A stretch of DNA of 13,636 bases from Comamonas sp. (GTDB lineage Bacteria; Pseudomonadota; Gammaproteobacteria; Burkholderiales; Burkholderiaceae_C). Shown here one piece after another: positions 2,783-12,644 of this stretch (positions are counted from its first letter, which is position 1; each line of letters begins with the position of its first letter). The notes below the pieces were generated by a model. It worked only from the letters and a program-made list of their open reading frames with translations, did no database searches and was not told the DNA's origin. Location: positions 1 to 13,636 of the forward strand of contig JAFAIY010000239.1 of the NCBI GenBank assembly GCA_019236485.1, in the 5' to 3' direction. The translations under genes were made by a program, and so were the position numbers.

Positions 2783-3688
2783 CTAGGCGGCCTGCTGCGC
2801 CCTGGCCAGCTCGCGTGCGGGAATCGGCGCCTCGCCGCTGGCCATGCGCATCAGCAGCGAATGCAGCATCTCGGTCGACAGTCCGTGCAGCACCAGCCGG
2901 TAGGCCGCATACAGCGTGGACAGCGGCACCATGGGATGCTTGTTGTTGAGCAGCACCAGATGCTCGGGCGAGGCCAGAATCTTGGCGCAGTAGATGGCAA
3001 TGGTTTCGTCGAGCTGCAGCGAATTGCTGGCGCGCCAGAAGTCGTTGTCGGTCAGCAGCAACTGGTAGACCGGCGTGTAGATCTCGATGGCGCTTTGCAG
3101 GTCCAGCAGATTCAGCCTGCCGCGCGGCATGTCCTCCAGCCTGAGATCCGGATCGTGGATCATGGAGAAGTCCGGCTCCGGCACGGCGACCAGCTCCTGC
3201 CCGTTTTCGCGCAGCGCCTTGTTCAGGCGGATCACGAAGTTGAACAGATTCAGGTCGTGCCTGAGGAATAGCTCGTCCTTCACGTCGTCGATCTGCGTGG
3301 GCGTCAGCGGCGTGGTGCCGACCTTGGTCGGCGCGTTGGCGGCCACGAACTGCAGCACCTGCGAGCCCAGGTGGAAGTGCCGCATGATCAGCCAGTTGGC
3401 CTCGGGCGAGACGAATTTGTTCATGCTGAAGGCCAGCAGCCGGTGCAGCAGCATGGAGTGGGCCCAGCGCTTGGGCAGAAAGATCTTCAGCGCCTGGATC
3501 ACGATCATGCTAAGCCGTGCCAGCGGCCGGATGGCGGGCAGAAAGAACTGGCGCGATGCGCCGCTGCAGTCGCGCAGCCAGGCGGCCTTGACCTCGTCGG
3601 GCAGGGGCGTGCTCCGGTCCAGATACAGCGCCAGCCAGGGGCTGGGGTCGCGCTCGTCCCAGACATGGTCTATGAACTCGTTCTTCAT
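2783..3688 (-). CDS. Unrecognised protein, last gene of the ketosynthase/desaturase operon
   Basis: A 301-residue protein that I cannot assign to a function. It starts 12 bases after the ketosynthase stop with a strong ribosome binding site (GAGGAAGG), so it is translated from the same message. The N terminus is polar (MKNEFIDHVWDERDPSPW). Residues ~48-75 are rich in hydrophobic and basic residues (FFLPAIRPLARLSMIVIQALKI), which could be an amphipathic or membrane-associated helix. No signal peptide is evident. The middle has HFHLGSQVLQF and a helical segment with DDVKDELFLRHDLNLFNFVIRLN. The C-terminal half looks mostly alpha-helical. There are scattered His, Asp and Glu residues but no motif I can name. 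Its position suggests a partner, carrier or tailoring role for the lipid-like product. It could instead be an accessory membrane-binding protein. The gene itself is certain; its role is unknown. Confidence 0.85.
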   Translation of the reverse strand: MKNEFIDHVWDERDPSPWLALYLDRSTPLPDEVKAAWLRDCSGASRQFFLPAIRPLARLSMIVIQALKIFLPKRWAHSMLLHRLLAFSMNKFVSPEANWLIMRHFHLGSQVLQFVAANAPTKVGTTPLTPTQIDDVKDELFLRHDLNLFNFVIRLNKALRENGQELVAVPEPDFSMIHDPDLRLEDMPRGRLNLLDLQSAIEIYTPVYQLLLTDNDFWRASNSLQLDETIAIYCAKILASPEHLVLLNNKHPMVPLSTLYAAYRLVLHGLSTEMLHSLLMRMASGEAPIPARELARAQQAA

Positions 3689-3700
3689 CGGGCCTTCCTC

Positions 3701-5632
3701 TTACTCGGCCAGCACATGCTGGAACTGCATCAGATACATGGCCGCGGTGTGGCGCGCCGTCTGCAGGATGGCCTGCTGGGCCGTGCCCGCTCCGTTCAGC
3801 TCCAGCGCCATCTGCACGGCCAGCAGCCAGCGCTCCAGATGGTTCTCGTCGTTGGCGCCGTGATACTCAAGGAAGCGGAAGGCGTCGGGTGGCAGCGGCA
3901 GACTCTGGCGCAGCAGCGGCAGCAGGCTGGGCACGATGCGCTGGCCCGTGCCTTCGATGATGTAGATCGCGCCCAGCAGGCCTATGGGGTCGGGCGTGGC
4001 GGCCAGGCCGTGCAGATAGGCGTTGAGTGCCTCGCCGCCGGGGTTGCGGCGCAGCTTGGCGATATCGGTCTCGGTGCCGCCGGCCCTGAGGTAGTCGGCA
4101 TGCAGGATCTTGAAGTCGTGCTGTTCGTCGCTCGCATGCAGGTCGATCAGCGAGGCCAGGGCCGCATAGTCGCCGGTCAGCGAGGCCGCGCCCTCGCGCA
4201 TCCACAGGCTGCCTTCGCGCACCTGGGGAATCCAGTGGCTCATCCAGCGCACATAGTCGGCCGTCTGCAGCCGGCGCGTGCGTATGCGCTGCAGCAGCGG
4301 CGTGCGCCAGACACGCGAGCGGTAGTCCTGCCAGATGCTGGCCAGCTCGGTCAGCAGCGGCGCGAGCGCCGCGGGGGCCTGGGCCGGGTCGTGCGGCGCG
4401 GCGATGCTGGAGACATCGGGCAGCGCATCGTCGGCAATGGCTGCTGAGGCCTCGGTCTTATGAGGGAAAGCCGCCTGCTGTGCTTGTGCAGCGGGCGCGT
4501 CAGCCTCCACTTCCCATAGCATGTAGCCGGCCGTGAAGCGGCCCGACTCGGGAATGAAGCACAGCAGCGTGTCGCCGGCCTTCAGGCGCGAGCCTTGTTT
4601 CTGCAGGAACTCGGACAGCATGATGAAGATGGACGCCGCGCCGGTGTTGCCGCGCCAGGCCAGATTGCTCCACCAGCGCTCGCGCGGGATGGCCAGCTGG
4701 GCCTTGCCCAGTAAATCGTCGACCACGGGGATGAAGCGCTCCGACGAGTAATGGCAGAGAAAATGGTCTATGCCGCGCTCGGGCACCCAGCCCTTGTGGG
4801 CCAGGTCCGCGTACTCATGGATGCAGACGTCGAACAGATGCGGCAGCAGGCGTATGTCCTGGCGCAGCGCCAGCGCGCCGGCGGCCTCGGCATCGCCCCA
4901 GGCCGGGAAGTCCAGATGGCTTTTGCTGCGGTCGGCCGTCATGCCCAGCTGCATGCACACGGGATAGTCGCCCGCAAAGCTGCGCAAATGGGTCCATTTG
5001 AGCTTGAGGCGCAGGCCGCCGGCCTGGGGCAAGGCCTTGGGGCCGCCCAGCAGCACGGCGCCCGCGCCGTCGGACAGCATCCAGCGCAGAAAGTGGGCGT
5101 CGAAATCCGTGTCATAGCTTTGCGCCGCAAAGCGCGAGCGCTTGAACAGCCGCGACGGCATCTCGCTGGCCACCGACAGGGCCAGGCTGTGCGCGCCGCT
5201 TTCCACGGCCATGGCGGCCGCCTGCATGGCGCCCACGCTGGCCGCGCACACGCCGTGAACCGACAGCGTCTCCATGGGAGGCGCGGCCATTTCGCCCTGG
5301 ATCATGCTCGCGAAGCCGGGCATCAGCGCATCGCCGCCCGAGGAGCCGCTGGAGAGAAAGCCGATATCGGCCAGCGTCTTGCCGGCGCCGTCCAGCGTGG
5401 ACTGTATGGCCGAGGCCGCCATCTGCGCATTGCTGAACACGGTATGGCCCGCGCCGTCGATCGCATAGTGGCGGGTCTGGATGCCGTTTTCGGCGAGTAT
5501 GCGGCGCTTGATGCGCTCGGAGATGCGGTTCAGAGGGGCAACGAACGCATCCATGCCGGCGTTGTCCACCGGGGCGCCGGGCAGAAACATTCCGGCAGAC
5601 TGCAGATAGACGTTCGAATAGGCAACAGGCAT
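3701..5632 (-). CDS. KAS III-type ketosynthase fused to a haem-oxygenase-like diiron oxidase domain
   Basis: A 643-residue two-domain protein. Residues 1 to ~375 are a thiolase-fold ketosynthase of the FabH/DarB type, with catalytic Cys129 (VHGVCAASVGAM), His294 (CHYSSERF) and Asn329 (RGNTGAASI), the complete Cys-His-Asn triad. Such enzymes condense an acyl thioester with malonyl-ACP or a second acyl chain. Residues ~376-425 are an Ala/Pro-rich linker (bases ~4360-4507). Residues ~426-643 resemble the PF14518-type iron-containing redox enzymes related to UndA and TenA/PqqC folds. Candidate metal ligands are Glu473 or Glu480, Glu503/His505 (SDEQHDF), Glu560 (YIIEGTGQ) and the H-x3-D-x2-H motif His591-Asp595-His598. 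A GAGG ribosome binding site lies 4 bases before the ATG, 16 bases after the desaturase stop. The ketosynthase is certain. The diiron domain is inferred from its motif pattern. The substrate is unknown. Confidence 0.88.
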   Translation of the reverse strand: MPVAYSNVYLQSAGMFLPGAPVDNAGMDAFVAPLNRISERIKRRILAENGIQTRHYAIDGAGHTVFSNAQMAASAIQSTLDGAGKTLADIGFLSSGSSGGDALMPGFASMIQGEMAAPPMETLSVHGVCAASVGAMQAAAMAVESGAHSLALSVASEMPSRLFKRSRFAAQSYDTDFDAHFLRWMLSDGAGAVLLGGPKALPQAGGLRLKLKWTHLRSFAGDYPVCMQLGMTADRSKSHLDFPAWGDAEAAGALALRQDIRLLPHLFDVCIHEYADLAHKGWVPERGIDHFLCHYSSERFIPVVDDLLGKAQLAIPRERWWSNLAWRGNTGAASIFIMLSEFLQKQGSRLKAGDTLLCFIPESGRFTAGYMLWEVEADAPAAQAQQAAFPHKTEASAAIADDALPDVSSIAAPHDPAQAPAALAPLLTELASIWQDYRSRVWRTPLLQRIRTRRLQTADYVRWMSHWIPQVREGSLWMREGAASLTGDYAALASLIDLHASDEQHDFKILHADYLRAGGTETDIAKLRRNPGGEALNAYLHGLAATPDPIGLLGAIYIIEGTGQRIVPSLLPLLRQSLPLPPDAFRFLEYHGANDENHLERWLLAVQMALELNGAGTAQQAILQTARHTAAMYLMQFQHVLAE

Positions 5633-5648
5633 AAATCCTCAACAGGTT

Positions 5649-6581
5649 TTACTGGACAGCTTCGGGCGGCATTTGCGGCCGGGTTCGGGCTGCGGGCCGG
5701 ACCAGACCCAGCACAAACACGCGCCCCATATAGGGCAGCAACCCACCCTCGTTCAGGGCGGGGGTGACCCGCTGGCGGTAGATCCGGTCGTGCAGCGTGC
5801 TTAGCTCGGACCAGTGCGCATGCGGGCACTCGTGGTGTGCGGTGTGCAGGCCAATATTAAAAAGCAGGGGGTTGACCAGCCCCTCGAAGTTGCGCGCGTA
5901 GTTCAGCTCGATACCCGGAGTATTGCGCTGCGCCCTGGACAGCGGTCTGCCGTCAGCATGGGCATGCTGCAGATAGTTGGTGGCCAGCAGCCAGTGCAGG
6001 CCGTGGAGCTGGGGCAGGATCACGAAGAGCAGGGCTTTCTGCCAGTCCAGCCAGAGAAAAAAGCCCCAGCTGCTCAGCCACAGCAGGTACTGCCCCATGC
6101 AGTAGCGGAAGGCTCCGGGCCAGTGCCGGCGCAGATTGCTCAGCCAGCGAAAGAACAGAGGGTAGAGCATCCAGGCGGCCTGCAGCGGATGGATCAGATA
6201 GCCCCATAGGTGGTTGGTGTCGCCGCCGAACTCGGGGCGGTAGGTGCGTGCCACATCCCTGGGGCCGTGCCGGAAGCGGTGATGGTTGCCCACATGGGCG
6301 GGCCAGAACACAAAGGTCGGATGGCCTTGCAGCAGCGTGAGCCAGTAGTCGGTAAAGCGGTTGGTCCAGCGGCCCCACCACATGCGCACATGGGTGTGGT
6401 TGTGGTGTATCACCCCCACGCCCAGCGTCAGGAACAGCTCCAGCGCATAGAGCACGAAGTTGAAGCCATGGCTCCACTGCCACCAGACCAGCAGCGGCAT
6501 GAGCAGCATGTAGAAAACGGATTGCCAGTCGCGCCAGTGGCGCAGGCTGGGCAGCAGGCGCCGGCCGGGATGTTTGCGCAT
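5649..6581 (-). CDS. Membrane fatty acid desaturase family protein
   Basis: A 310-residue integral membrane protein with the histidine boxes of the fatty acid desaturase superfamily, which bind two irons and use O2 to introduce a double bond or hydroxyl group into acyl chains. Box 1 is HHNHTH (59-64), box 2 is HVGNHH (96-101) with a further His at 105, and box 3 is HTAHH (246-250). Extra His residues in NYLQHAH (206, 208) and PHAH (254, 256) fit the third cluster. Hydrophobic segments lie around residues 20-57, 125-148 and 160-200. The ATG directly follows the TGA of the upstream gene with no spacer and no obvious ribosome binding site, which points to termination-reinitiation coupling. The next gene, a ketosynthase, suggests the substrate is the acyl starter or the condensed product. 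Regiochemistry cannot be read from sequence. Confidence 0.9.
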   Translation of the reverse strand: MRKHPGRRLLPSLRHWRDWQSVFYMLLMPLLVWWQWSHGFNFVLYALELFLTLGVGVIHHNHTHVRMWWGRWTNRFTDYWLTLLQGHPTFVFWPAHVGNHHRFRHGPRDVARTYRPEFGGDTNHLWGYLIHPLQAAWMLYPLFFRWLSNLRRHWPGAFRYCMGQYLLWLSSWGFFLWLDWQKALLFVILPQLHGLHWLLATNYLQHAHADGRPLSRAQRNTPGIELNYARNFEGLVNPLLFNIGLHTAHHECPHAHWSELSTLHDRIYRQRVTPALNEGGLLPYMGRVFVLGLVRPAARTRPQMPPEAVQ

Positions 6582-7313
6582 TCAGCGGGGATCGGAGGAC
6601 TTGACCTGGGTGCGCATGAACCGGTCCATGAAGGCCAGCGAAAAGCCGTAATTGCCGGCCGGGCGCGCATGATGCAGATGGTGGCGGCGGCTGGCGGCCA
6701 GCAGATGGCTGTCCGAGACCCGGGGGAAGAAGTCGTAGTTGGAATGGCCTATCGTATTGAGGATCAGGCTCAGCACGGGCACCGAGGCCAGCGACCAGAA
6801 GCTGAAGTCATGTACCACCATGGGAAGCAGGATGATGTTGCCCAGCATCAGCGCCTCGACGGGGTGAAAGCTGTAGGTAGACCAGGGCGTGGTCACCGTG
6901 GAGCGATGGTGATCGCCGTGATAGCGCACCAGTTGGCGGGTGTGCAGCAGGCGGTGGTTGACCCAGAAATGCACCTCGTTCCAGAGCAGCAGGGCCAGGA
7001 TTTCCAGCGCTATGCGTCCCGCGCCGGCCGTGGGCGACAGATGTGCCCAGCCCAGCTTGAGAAAGCCCCAGGGCACGATCGTGCCCAGGCCGAAGACCAG
7101 GACGGAATTGAAGGACAGGCGCCGCTCGCGCTGCAGCTGATCGGGCTTGAGCGGGCGCGTATCCAGCGTCCGCCCCAAACCGTGGCGCGCCAGCCAGCGC
7201 GTGAATGCGCTCATGCCCCAACCGCCCAGCAGATAGAGCGTGCCGAAAGAAACCAGCCCCAGTGCCATGACTTGCCAGGCATTGAGCTGTATGAACCAGG
7301 TACCAGCGTCCAT
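6582..7313 (-). CDS. Sterol desaturase/fatty acid hydroxylase superfamily membrane protein
   Basis: A 243-residue membrane protein of the ERG3/PF04116 type, non-haem diiron enzymes that hydroxylate or desaturate lipids. The histidine pattern is complete: HFWVNHRLLH (115-124), HGDHH (132-136), His190 in GHSNYDFFP, and HHLHH (211-215). Hydrophobic segments near residues 10-32, 68-90, 100-118 and 155-188 fit a multi-pass topology. In prokaryotes, family members often act on fatty acids, carotenoids or alkyl chains rather than sterols, so the sterol label should not be taken literally. It is the first gene of the operon. GGAG lies 5 bases before the ATG, and a long dyad begins about 40 bases upstream. 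Its stop abuts the start of the desaturase gene. Confidence 0.9.
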   Translation of the reverse strand: MDAGTWFIQLNAWQVMALGLVSFGTLYLLGGWGMSAFTRWLARHGLGRTLDTRPLKPDQLQRERRLSFNSVLVFGLGTIVPWGFLKLGWAHLSPTAGAGRIALEILALLLWNEVHFWVNHRLLHTRQLVRYHGDHHRSTVTTPWSTYSFHPVEALMLGNIILLPMVVHDFSFWSLASVPVLSLILNTIGHSNYDFFPRVSDSHLLAASRRHHLHHARPAGNYGFSLAFMDRFMRTQVKSSDPR

Positions 7314-7352
7314 GAAGGCTCCAAAAGCGGTGGCGCTGCCCCAGATGAAACA

Positions 7353-7396
7353 ATGCGCCCGATGACATAGCGTAAACGTATGCCGGTCGGGCGCAT
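7353..7396 (-). promoter_or_regulatory. 44-base dyad in the leader of the lipid operon
   Basis: Two perfect 10-base inverted arms, ATGCGCCCGA (7353-7362) and TCGGGCGCAT (7387-7396), flank a 24-base spacer. The spacer contains a nested, nearly symmetric core, CATAgCGT-aa-ACGTATG, with one extra G. The whole element lies 40-83 bases upstream of the first operon gene. It could be an operator for a dimeric or tetrameric repressor, or a leader hairpin. On the - strand only a weak T-rich run (TGTTTC) follows it, so it is not a convincing terminator. Confidence 0.5.
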
Positions 7397-7537
7397 GATA
7401 AGGGATGCGGTAGTAGCTCTATCTGATACTCAAAGGCGTATCAAGCGAGCAAGGTGGTCTTGAAGCCGGCATATTCCAGGTGATACGCACCGGGCAGGAG
7501 CCTGGGCGGCCCCGCCGCCTCGCGGCGAAGCTGCTGT

Positions 7538-7558
7538 CTCCCTCTCGAACAGAGGGAG
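7538..7558 (-). terminator. Stem-loop after the Bug receptor gene
   Basis: A perfect 8-base stem (CTCCCTCT/AGAGGGAG) with a 5-base loop starts 7 bases after the TGA of the Bug gene. A second GC hairpin (GGCGGC-CCC-GCCGCC, 7505-7519) follows in the same direction. There is no T-run, so it may be a processing or stability structure rather than a true intrinsic terminator. Confidence 0.38.
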
Positions 7559-7565
7559 CGTGCGA

Positions 7566-8555
7566 TCACTGCGCCGTGATGTGCTGCTCGCGGATGATGG
7601 TGCCCAGGGCCTTCACATCTTGCTGGATGCGGTTGTGCAGGCCTTCGGGCGAGCTGCCGACCGCCTGCCAGCCTTGCATGGCCAGCTTCTGGCGCATTTC
7701 GGGGCTGCGCACGATTTCGCTCACGGCAGCCGCCAGCTTGTCCACATGGGCCTTGGGCATGGACTTGGGCGCGGCCACGGCATTCCAGATCTCGAGGTCG
7801 AAGTTGTTGATGCCCAGGTCTTTGAGGCTGGGCAGGCCCGGGGCCAGCGGGCTGCGGGCCGCCGAGGTCACGCCTATGCCGTGCAGCTTGCCGGCCTGGA
7901 TCTGGTTCATGGCCAGTGCCGGCGGCAGCATGGACAGCTGCAGGTCGCCGCCCTGGATGCCGTTGAACACCTGGGGATAGCCTGCATAGGGCACATGCAC
8001 GGCCTTGATGGTCGAGCGGCTCTTGAGCAGCTCCATGCCCAGATGGCCCACGGTGCCCACGCCGGGCGAGCCGTAGCTCCATTTGTCGCCGGCCTTGGCG
8101 GCGGCATCGAGGAAGGCCTTGCCCTGGGGCGCCGAAGCCGGGGCCACCAGCACCAGCGGCGCCACGCCGATCAGGCTCACGGGCTGGAGATCCTTGACCG
8201 GGTCGTAGCGCACGGCGGGGTTGAGCAGCTTGGCAATCGTCATATTGCCGTTGATCATCACGCTGAAGGTATAGGCATCGGCCTTGGCCACATATTCGCC
8301 GGCGATATTGCCGCCCGCGCCCACGCGGTTTTCCACGATGATGGTCTGGCCCAGCTTTTTCTCCAGCGGCTCGGCCAGAGCGCGGGCCGTGAGGTCGGGG
8401 GAGGAGCCCGCGGGGAAGCCCACGATCAGGTGCAGGGGCTTGTCGGGCCAGTTTTCGGCAGCCATGGCCGCGGGGGCCATGGCTGCGGCCAGCAAGGCGG
8501 CGCCGGCAGCGACCAGGCCGCGGCGAGACAGATTCTTCGATGTGTGAGCAGGCAT
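7566..8555 (-). CDS. Bug/TctC family periplasmic solute-binding receptor (orphan)
   Basis: A 329-residue substrate receptor of the tripartite tricarboxylate transporter type. Such proteins bind small carboxylates, aromatic acids or amides in the periplasm with a two-lobed fold. The N terminus has a twin-arginine signal (SRRGLVAAG, Arg11-Arg12), a hydrophobic stretch and a likely cleavage after AMA (residue 32). Family hallmarks are IVGFPAGSSPDLTAR near residue 45, VENRVGAGGNIA, YGSPGVGTVGHL and VPYAGYPQVFNGIQGG. No TctA or TctB membrane subunit is nearby, which is usual for the greatly expanded Bug families of Burkholderiales. The ribosome binding site is weak (AAGAG). The gene sits between the rpoH terminator and the lipid operon but has no spacing evidence for co-transcription with either. 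The ligand cannot be inferred. Confidence 0.92.
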   Translation of the reverse strand: MPAHTSKNLSRRGLVAAGAALLAAAMAPAAMAAENWPDKPLHLIVGFPAGSSPDLTARALAEPLEKKLGQTIIVENRVGAGGNIAGEYVAKADAYTFSVMINGNMTIAKLLNPAVRYDPVKDLQPVSLIGVAPLVLVAPASAPQGKAFLDAAAKAGDKWSYGSPGVGTVGHLGMELLKSRSTIKAVHVPYAGYPQVFNGIQGGDLQLSMLPPALAMNQIQAGKLHGIGVTSAARSPLAPGLPSLKDLGINNFDLEIWNAVAAPKSMPKAHVDKLAAAVSEIVRSPEMRQKLAMQGWQAVGSSPEGLHNRIQQDVKALGTIIREQHITAQ

Positions 8556-8617
8556 GGCAGGTCTCTTGAGTCTTGTTGGTATGGCTAGGGGCAGCGACGC
8601 CGGGCGGCATCGCGCCG

Positions 8618-11589: not shown

Positions 11590-12576
11590 TTATTCGGCGC
11601 TAATGCCCTGGGATTTGATGAGGCTGCCCCAACGCTTGGCATCCGCGCCGATCAGGGCCTGGAAGGCCTGGGGCGTGCTGTGCTGCGGCGTCATGCCCTG
11701 CGACTCGAAGGCCTTGGCCACATCGGGCTGGGCGAGCATGGTTTTCAGGGCGTCGTTGAGGCTGCGCACGAACTCCGGCGCCAGCCCCTTGGGGCCCAGC
11801 AGGCCGTACCACATGTCCACATTCATATCGCCGAGGTTCAATGTCTTGAGCGGCGGCACGGCGGGCAGCAAAGGGGAGGGGGAGTCCGAGCTGATGGCGA
11901 TGGCGCGCAGCTTTCCGGCCTTGATGTGCTGCAGCGCGACGTGAATGGGCAGGAACATCAGGTCTATCTGTCCGCCCAGCAGGTCGGTCAGGACCGGAGC
12001 CGTGCCGCGGTAGCTGACATGCGTGAGCGATATCCGGGTTTTGCTCTTGAGCAGTTCCATCGCCAGGTGGTGCGGCGTACCTGCGCCGGGAGAGCCGTAG
12101 TTCAGCACGCCGGGATTCTTCCGGGCGTAGTCGATGAGCTCCCTGAGGTCGGCAATCCTGGACTGCGTGCCGGTGACCAGCACCAGCTGGCCCACGCTGG
12201 TCTGGCTGATGGCCGTGAGATCGCGGACCGGGCTGTAGCCCATCTTCGGGTACAGCTCGGTATTCATCACCAGGGTGTTGACGGTGACCAGCAGGGTGCT
12301 GCCGTCGGGCGTGGAGCGCACGACTTCCAGCGTGCCGATATTGCCCGAGGCACCGGGCTTGTTGTCCACGATGAACGGCCGCTGGAAGCGCTCGGCGAGC
12401 TTGGGGGCCAGCACGCGGGCGATCAGGTCGATCCCGGTGCCGGGCGTGAACGGCACTACAAGGCGCACCGGAGCCTGCGGGTTGGCCAGAGCGGGCAGGC
12501 CGACGCTGCCGGCGGCCAGGGTGAGCAGGGCCCGGCGGCGGTTGATGGGCAGCATGGCTGCGGACGTTTTACGCAT
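11590..12576 (-). CDS. Bug/TctC family periplasmic solute-binding receptor (catabolic locus)
   Basis: A 328-residue periplasmic receptor of the Bug family. I chose the ATG at 12576 over one at 12618 because AGGAG lies 5 bases before it and the shorter form begins directly with an export signal. The signal has a twin-arginine-like start (NRRRALLTLAAG, Arg13-Arg15) and a probable cleavage after ALA at residue 31. Family hallmarks are VVPFTPGTGIDLIARVLA, VDNKPGASGNIGT, NYGSPGAGTPHHLAMELL and VSYRGTAPVLTDLLGGQIDLMF. It precedes the monooxygenase by 30 bases and faces a LysR regulator across a 68-base gap. It therefore probably binds the substrate, or an inducer, of this pathway. No TctAB transporter genes are in the window. 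Confidence 0.92.
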   Translation of the reverse strand: MRKTSAAMLPINRRRALLTLAAGSVGLPALANPQAPVRLVVPFTPGTGIDLIARVLAPKLAERFQRPFIVDNKPGASGNIGTLEVVRSTPDGSTLLVTVNTLVMNTELYPKMGYSPVRDLTAISQTSVGQLVLVTGTQSRIADLRELIDYARKNPGVLNYGSPGAGTPHHLAMELLKSKTRISLTHVSYRGTAPVLTDLLGGQIDLMFLPIHVALQHIKAGKLRAIAISSDSPSPLLPAVPPLKTLNLGDMNVDMWYGLLGPKGLAPEFVRSLNDALKTMLAQPDVAKAFESQGMTPQHSTPQAFQALIGADAKRWGSLIKSQGISAE

Positions 12577-12644
12577 GGTGTCTCCTGTTTTTCTGTGCTG
12601 CAATTGCAACGCGTCCATTGATTTGAATCAAACGGGAATTTTTG
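12577..12644. promoter_or_regulatory. Divergent control region with two palindromes, probable LysR target
   Basis: This is the shared 68-base gap between the receptor/monooxygenase operon and the LysR gene. It contains TGCAATTGCA (12599-12608), a perfect 10-base palindrome, and TTGATT-TG-AATCAA (12618-12631), a perfect 6+6 dyad. The second has the T-N11-A form typical of LysR-type binding sites (T12619 to A12631). The receptor ribosome binding site is also at the edge. Binding by the adjacent LysR protein is inferred. Confidence 0.55.

Follow-up and report, generated by a model that had tools for sequence, protein, structure and literature searches.

A putative lipid operon of Comamonas with a StlD/DarB-type ketosynthase joined to a haem-oxygenase-like dimetal oxidase domain and followed by DUF6999

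Dialkylresorcinol clusters of the DarAB(C) kind, those of flexirubin and arcuflavin producers included, contain a ketosynthase (KS) of the StlD/DarB family, and the DarA-DarB gene pair has been described (PMC3949708; statements from papers cited by PMC number refer to the accessible parts of those papers). Pathways of the DarB/StlD type make signals, namely dialkylresorcinols and cyclohexanediones (PMC4414361), as well as antifungal compounds (PMC6403133), and genome mining gives the label "resorcinol" to such loci where no product is known (PMC8248536, PMC9045143). Here we analyze a 13,636-nucleotide stretch of Comamonas sp. DNA (assembly GCA_019236485.1, contig JAFAIY010000239.1; hereafter the window), whose minus strand carries, from position 7313 to 2783, an operon encoding an ERG3-type membrane hydroxylase, a membrane fatty acid desaturase, a KS fused to a haem-oxygenase-like dimetal oxidase (HDO) domain, and a protein of the family DUF6999. 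Like the DarAB(C) clusters, the operon has a KS of the StlD/DarB family, and the catalytic residues of that KS are the same; the difference is that no DarA was found, that the KS is fused to or followed by an HDO and then by DUF6999, and that membrane oxygenases stand in front in many genomes. We tentatively read the operon as a DarA-independent DarB/StlD-type pathway that would turn intermediates of the fatty acid synthase into an alkyl lipid bearing a ring, a proposal that we consider nearly as apt to be right as wrong.

Among enzymes with a solved structure, the nearest to the KS by profile and by fold is StlD of Photorhabdus (PDB: 5gk0), which in its solved form is a lone KS, whereas here a C-terminal HDO domain is added. 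That domain resembles the HDO enzymes UndA, CADD, SznF, and PolF in belonging to the Haem_oxygenas_2 family and in having a candidate set of three histidine and three carboxylate ligands, but differs from them in being fused to a ketosynthase; neither "ketosynthase" nor "fused" appears as a word in the main text of a 2026 review of HDOs (PMC13108848). For a DarB-type KS paired with some dimetal enzyme there is a precedent in cyanobacteria. The enzyme concerned there, CylC, represents a dimetal family distinct from the HDOs. CylC is a dimetal-carboxylate halogenase that occurs with a DarB-type KS in eight cyanobacterial dialkylresorcinol clusters, which differ from the present operon in that DarA accompanies the KS and for which HDO and DUF6999 go unmentioned in the accessible text (PMC8406957). 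In the literature searched, we found neither a description of the four-gene unit nor a paper mentioning DUF6999.

The ketosynthase, the HDO domain, and their partner genes

The fusion gene (3701–5632, minus strand) encodes a single chain of 643 residues that matches both Pfam ACP_syn_III_C (1.5e-7) and Haem_oxygenas_2 (5.5e-8). For its KS domain (residues 1–375; 4508–5632, minus strand), the best NCBIfam model is StlD/DarB, and the closest solved structure by profile is StlD (E = 2.7e-90), with OleA and FabH far behind. Alignment with StlD reveals identical active-site stretches (FLRWMLSDGAGA, HYSSE, and GNTG), and the residues Cys129, His294, and Asn329, the last of which we take to be the catalytic asparagine, are among 39 columns that are invariant across 20 core KS and eight DarB-type KS. 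When a structural model of the fusion (mean predicted local distance difference test score [pLDDT] 80.5 and predicted template modeling score [pTM] 0.57, with an uncertain domain arrangement and a low-confidence linker at residues 380–405) was searched with Foldseek, the first six rows were all StlD, at 36–37% identity and with a value of 5.7e-27 compared with 2.7e-17 for the next enzyme. Taken by sequence and by model, the domain belongs to the StlD/DarB family, the makers of cyclohexanediones and resorcinols, and this membership favors a ring of the 1,3-cyclohexanedione or resorcinol type over a linear fatty-acyl derivative. An earlier interpretation made from the DNA letters (the sequence-only reading) had called the protein a KAS III-HDO fusion; the fusion is confirmed, but KAS III turns out to be an incomplete name for the KS part. 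In a tree of KS sequences, the grouped core KS are separated from the DarAB KS by a branch with 100/99 support, rows that were left ungrouped being uncounted.

The HDO domain (residues 426–643; 3704–4357, minus strand) was compared across 18 HDO domains, 17 of which match PF14518; H499, E503, E560, H591, D595, and H598 are invariant in all of them, and E473 is nearly so. The H-x3-E order on the first ligand helix of the operon HDO differs from the order found in CADD. The six invariant residues fit the 3His/3carboxylate rule for HDO ligands (PMC13108848) and are candidate dimetal ligands, a role assigned from their position. The protein in which the sequence-only reading recognized no family (2783–3688, minus strand; 301 residues) matches DUF6999 (PF22523) with an E value of 5e-126 and a profile score of 419.8 bits, above the curated Pfam cut-off of 27. 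It was modeled with a mean pLDDT of 88.2 and a pTM of 0.88 as nearly all helices, and the model gave no significant match to any solved fold. The family has 17 invariant residues; H104, H144, D145, D227, H268, and E273 are among them and map to four long helices in the model. A metal site in DUF6999 is a possibility, and what KS and HDO produce is the most likely substrate of the protein, although the idea that it is a catalyst is a guess made from these invariant polar residues on long helices.

The two remaining genes encode the accessory membrane enzymes, both with histidine boxes: the hydroxylase (6582–7313, minus strand; 243 residues; Pfam FA_hydroxylase, PF04116, 4e-22) and the desaturase (5649–6581, minus strand; 310 residues; Pfam FA_desaturase, PF00487, 3e-16). 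The order of transcription is hydroxylase, desaturase, KS-HDO, and DUF6999, with intergenic gaps of 0, 16, and 12 bases, so that the listing of open reading frames (ORFs) bears out the tight four-gene unit first suggested, as Pfam does the claim of three diiron-type oxygenase families next to a ketosynthase. Likewise in agreement with that account, no acyl carrier protein (ACP), ligase, thioesterase, or reductase was recognized in the window when family models were run on the operon and on seven of the other ORFs. Relative to Comamonas odontotermitis (L045), the ratio of nonsynonymous to synonymous substitution rates is 0.22 for the hydroxylase, 0.12 for the desaturase, 0.22 for the fusion, and 0.24 for DUF6999; all four genes are under purifying selection.

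Conservation of the operon and of its core

The hydroxylase, the fusion, and DUF6999 were each searched across a sample of 53 genomes of the genus; each was found in the identical 40 genomes, and all three are missing together from the same 13. A scan of named genomes gave 503 loci with DUF6999. The closest 80, mostly from Comamonas, Delftia, Variovorax, and Achromobacter together with two from Bordetella, one from Pararobbsia, and a few others, were retained for a comparison of gene order. The order hydroxylase, desaturase, KS-HDO, DUF6999 is complete in 78 of them. The two exceptions, both from Variovorax (L085 and L095), have the hydroxylase and DUF6999 at one site and the desaturase and KS-HDO on another contig (L132 and L133), that is, the unit is split and no part is lost in either. 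Relatives of Comamonas have either retained the operon as a whole or lost all of it, and these counts refute the notion that the genes co-occur only rarely.

The four-gene arrangement described in the sequence-only reading is near-constant among the closest loci, but not farther out. Three samples that overlap, drawn from the phylum (398 genomes), the class (369), and the order (300), yielded 18 further DUF6999 genomes outside the genus, and in 16 of these KS and HDO stand directly ahead of DUF6999 (for G379 as judged from its named copy, L076). The exceptions are G656, where DUF6999 lies beside a transposase-like gene, and G636, which has a broken remnant; a broken core copy, with pieces of DUF6999 and a fragment of the KS, lies at L117. 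Two more genomes with the core (G514 and G558) were found through the fusion, and arrangements were counted over 18 core-bearing genomes: ten have all the parts, one has the desaturase without the hydroxylase (L110), two have the hydroxylase without the desaturase (L121 and L122), and five have neither membrane enzyme (L111, L112, L113, L115, and L116). A Pseudoalteromonas plasmid (L019) likewise carries the core without hydroxylase and without desaturase, and KS and HDO are separate genes there and in L111, L112, L115, and L116.

Three loci outside Burkholderiales have a 185-residue, histidine-bearing membrane protein ahead of the KS, in the place where the hydroxylase and the desaturase would stand (L019, 7439–7993; L111, 11444–12007; L115, 2626–3171). 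The three proteins are 64–67% alike and share conserved histidines, four hydrophobic stretches are present in that of L019, and the two that were scanned had no Pfam match. Other lipid genes adjoin distant cores: a DAGK gene in L110 and, in L112 (G223, from another class of the phylum), a gene for an MFS/acyltransferase/AMP-binding protein (5200–8598) that follows DUF6999 on the same strand. A TetR-family gene is divergently oriented upstream of the KS in L112. Across these loci, KS, HDO, and DUF6999 form a near-constant core, with the hydroxylase and the desaturase as its exchangeable or optional partners.

A proposed DarA-independent pathway and its rivals

In the pathway that we propose, type II fatty acid synthesis would supply the KS with two acyl thioesters, one carrying a beta-ketoacyl chain and the other an acyl or 2-enoyl chain, which the KS, by analogy with StlD and DarB, would join into a 2,5-dialkyl-cyclohexane-1,3-dione-type product. 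The tethered HDO, together with DUF6999, would then carry out an O2-dependent step in the stead of DarA, which could be aromatization or some other ring oxidation such as hydroxylation, and the final product would be a resorcinol, a hydroquinone, or another oxidized ring. The membrane hydroxylase and desaturase may tailor the alkyl chains of the ring product, and lineages would swap this tailoring set. All of these steps, from the formation of the ring through its oxidation by HDO and DUF6999 to the tailoring of the chains, are inferred, as is the final product.

As a DarA query, we used a conserved 315-residue protein encoded directly ahead of a plain DarB-type KS in five Burkholderiales loci, the other four copies being 68–84% identical to it. 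By tblastn at E ≤ 1e-3, it was found in none of 22 core-type loci (L108–L126, L019, L132, and L133), and the same query was positive in L025–L027, in L134, and in a Streptomyces plasmid locus (L135), where a "hypothetical protein" encoded directly after a StlD/DarB-type KS (7151–8116) is a distant DarA relative (32% identity, 1.5e-37); this wider tblastn control strengthens the result. All told, DarA adjoins the KS in six of nine StlD/DarB-type loci that lack HDO, namely the five from Burkholderiales (the query's own included) and the one from Streptomyces. The Streptomyces plasmid cluster also contains genes for an ACP, an FAD monooxygenase, FabF, and a P450. The absence of DarA is meaningful because a darA mutant of Pseudomonas chlororaphis makes no resorcinol (PMC6403133); conversely, since a darC mutant still makes resorcinol in a lower amount (PMC6403133) and darC is the ACP gene according to an Azoarcus table (PMC3949708), the missing ACP is no obstacle.

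Several observations weigh against the proposed pathway. The KS scores 312.8 bits with the StlD/DarB model and 247.5 bits with the DarB model, below the respective NCBIfam cut-offs of 450 and 550, and because of this its reaction may have changed; five core KS scored against StlD/DarB (those of the window, L110, L111, L112, and L113) reach 312–398 bits, compared with 587 for the DarB of L127. The position of the L116 core KS in the tree is not firm, and a single clade of all core KS is neither supported nor rejected (p = 0.076 in the approximately unbiased test). The 315-residue protein is a putative DarA, named from its gene position and from the published pair (PMC3949708), and no family model matched it. 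Its absence from all 53 genus genomes at E ≤ 1e-8 comes from a search without internal control, for which local tblastn served as the control; this absence, and the silence of the literature searched, agree with the initial view that the operon is no pathway with a name and no standard dialkylresorcinol cluster. DarA was also not found by tblastn beside three StlD/DarB-type KS on Bacteroidales plasmids (L136, L137, and L138), which lessens the weight of the DarA result, because the lack of DarA is then not peculiar to the KS-HDO-DUF6999 system. In all three Bacteroidales records, the gene directly ahead of the KS encodes a regulator of the TetR or helix-turn-helix type, and the annotation shows neither HDO nor DUF6999 near the KS. 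In G656, moreover, KS-HDO was not found genome-wide at E ≤ 1e-10, so that DUF6999 there stands apart from the core. Finally, the reactions of HDO enzymes include the cleavage of C-C bonds, UndA being an example, so that a linear product is still conceivable.

Such a linear lipid would arise if the KS performed a single Claisen condensation, the HDO cleaved or decarboxylated the beta-keto product in the manner of UndA, and the membrane enzymes hydroxylated and desaturated it, giving an oxidized ketone or alkene. The fusion of the HDO to the KS, the presence of the fatty acid decarboxylase UndA among the HDOs (PMC13108848), and the two fatty-acyl oxygenase families in the operon speak for this route, and the hydroxylated, desaturated, and perhaps decarboxylated fatty-acyl product expected by the sequence-only reading would be of this kind. 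We nevertheless think it unlikely, if still a serious contender, since by sequence, structure model, and motifs the KS is a member of the ring-forming StlD/DarB family, OleA and FabH being much more distant matches, and DUF6999 would be left without a role.

The operon might also make an ordinary 2,5-dialkylresorcinol, with HDO or DUF6999 as a non-orthologous replacement for DarA, which is what the "resorcinol" label given by antiSMASH in Delftia implies. An orphan "resorcinol" cluster, BGC-4, is present in all study genomes of D. tsuruhatensis and has no similarity to known clusters, the accessible text giving only the antiSMASH label and neither genes nor product (PMC9045143). In D. tsuruhatensis G196, no StlD/DarB-type KS other than the fusion was found at E ≤ 1e-30 (true DarB-type KS score near 1e-64 in the same kind of search), and DarA was not found; BGC-4 is for this reason probably the KS-HDO-DUF6999 operon. 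An ordinary dialkylresorcinol would, however, render the extra oxygenases superfluous, and two Variovorax genomes, G379 (L127 and L076) and G1211 (L134 and L083), keep the KS-HDO-DUF6999 operon alongside a DarA-DarB pair, a combination that speaks for two different products, and we regard an ordinary product as rather improbable. The same two are convenient strains for distinguishing the DarAB product from that of the operon. Least probable of all, in our estimate, is a housekeeping adaptation in which the operon acts on bulk membrane lipids or on fatty acids and makes no dedicated small molecule: it would suit the wide occurrence in Comamonas, Variovorax, and Achromobacter, the lack of any transporter or regulator between the four genes, and the lipid genes adjoining the two distant cores L110 and L112, but the operon is absent as a block from 13 of the 53 genus genomes, and we know of no bulk membrane-lipid role for any StlD/DarB-family KS.

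Surroundings of the operon and implications

A 42-nucleotide inverted repeat (7354–7395, minus strand) lies 40 bases ahead of the operon's first ATG. It has perfect outer arms of nine bases, its predicted fold is strong (z = −3.25), it occurs as a single copy in the genome of the window (G000), and both arms are exact in four of eight aligned upstream sequences of the Comamonas group; the hairpin could be a leader or attenuator, an operator, or a terminator of the upstream gene. Two genes for TctC/Bug-type solute receptors lie upstream of the operon, at 7566–8555 and 11590–12618; the nearer is a TctC family member (7e-51), and the farther, for which no NCBIfam model matched, encodes a product that we take to resemble a receptor of this type. 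A sigma factor gene that adjoins the operon in the window was seen in 17 of the 80 fetched loci, some of which are short stretches. The neighbors of the operon in the window are not conserved along with it.

Seen as a whole, the system is a new version of a DarB/StlD-type pathway that includes one conserved but unexplained protein, and whether it is new in a categorical sense depends on the role of DUF6999. The stronger claim, that KS, HDO, and DUF6999 constitute a new three-enzyme, DarA-less route to an oxidized aromatic or cyclohexanedione lipid and that DUF6999 represents a novel enzyme family, all-helical in a novel fold, whose members may be metal-dependent oxygenases or aromatases, we hold to be doubtful but well worth stating. 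In any case, the clusters that lack DarA and bear HDO and DUF6999 can be set apart from true dialkylresorcinol clusters, and they provide a lead to the function of DUF6999. If the stronger claim is true, many Comamonas, Delftia, Variovorax, and Achromobacter strains, and some Bordetella, would have in common a hitherto unknown class of lipid, which may serve as a signal, an antibiotic, or a membrane quinol.

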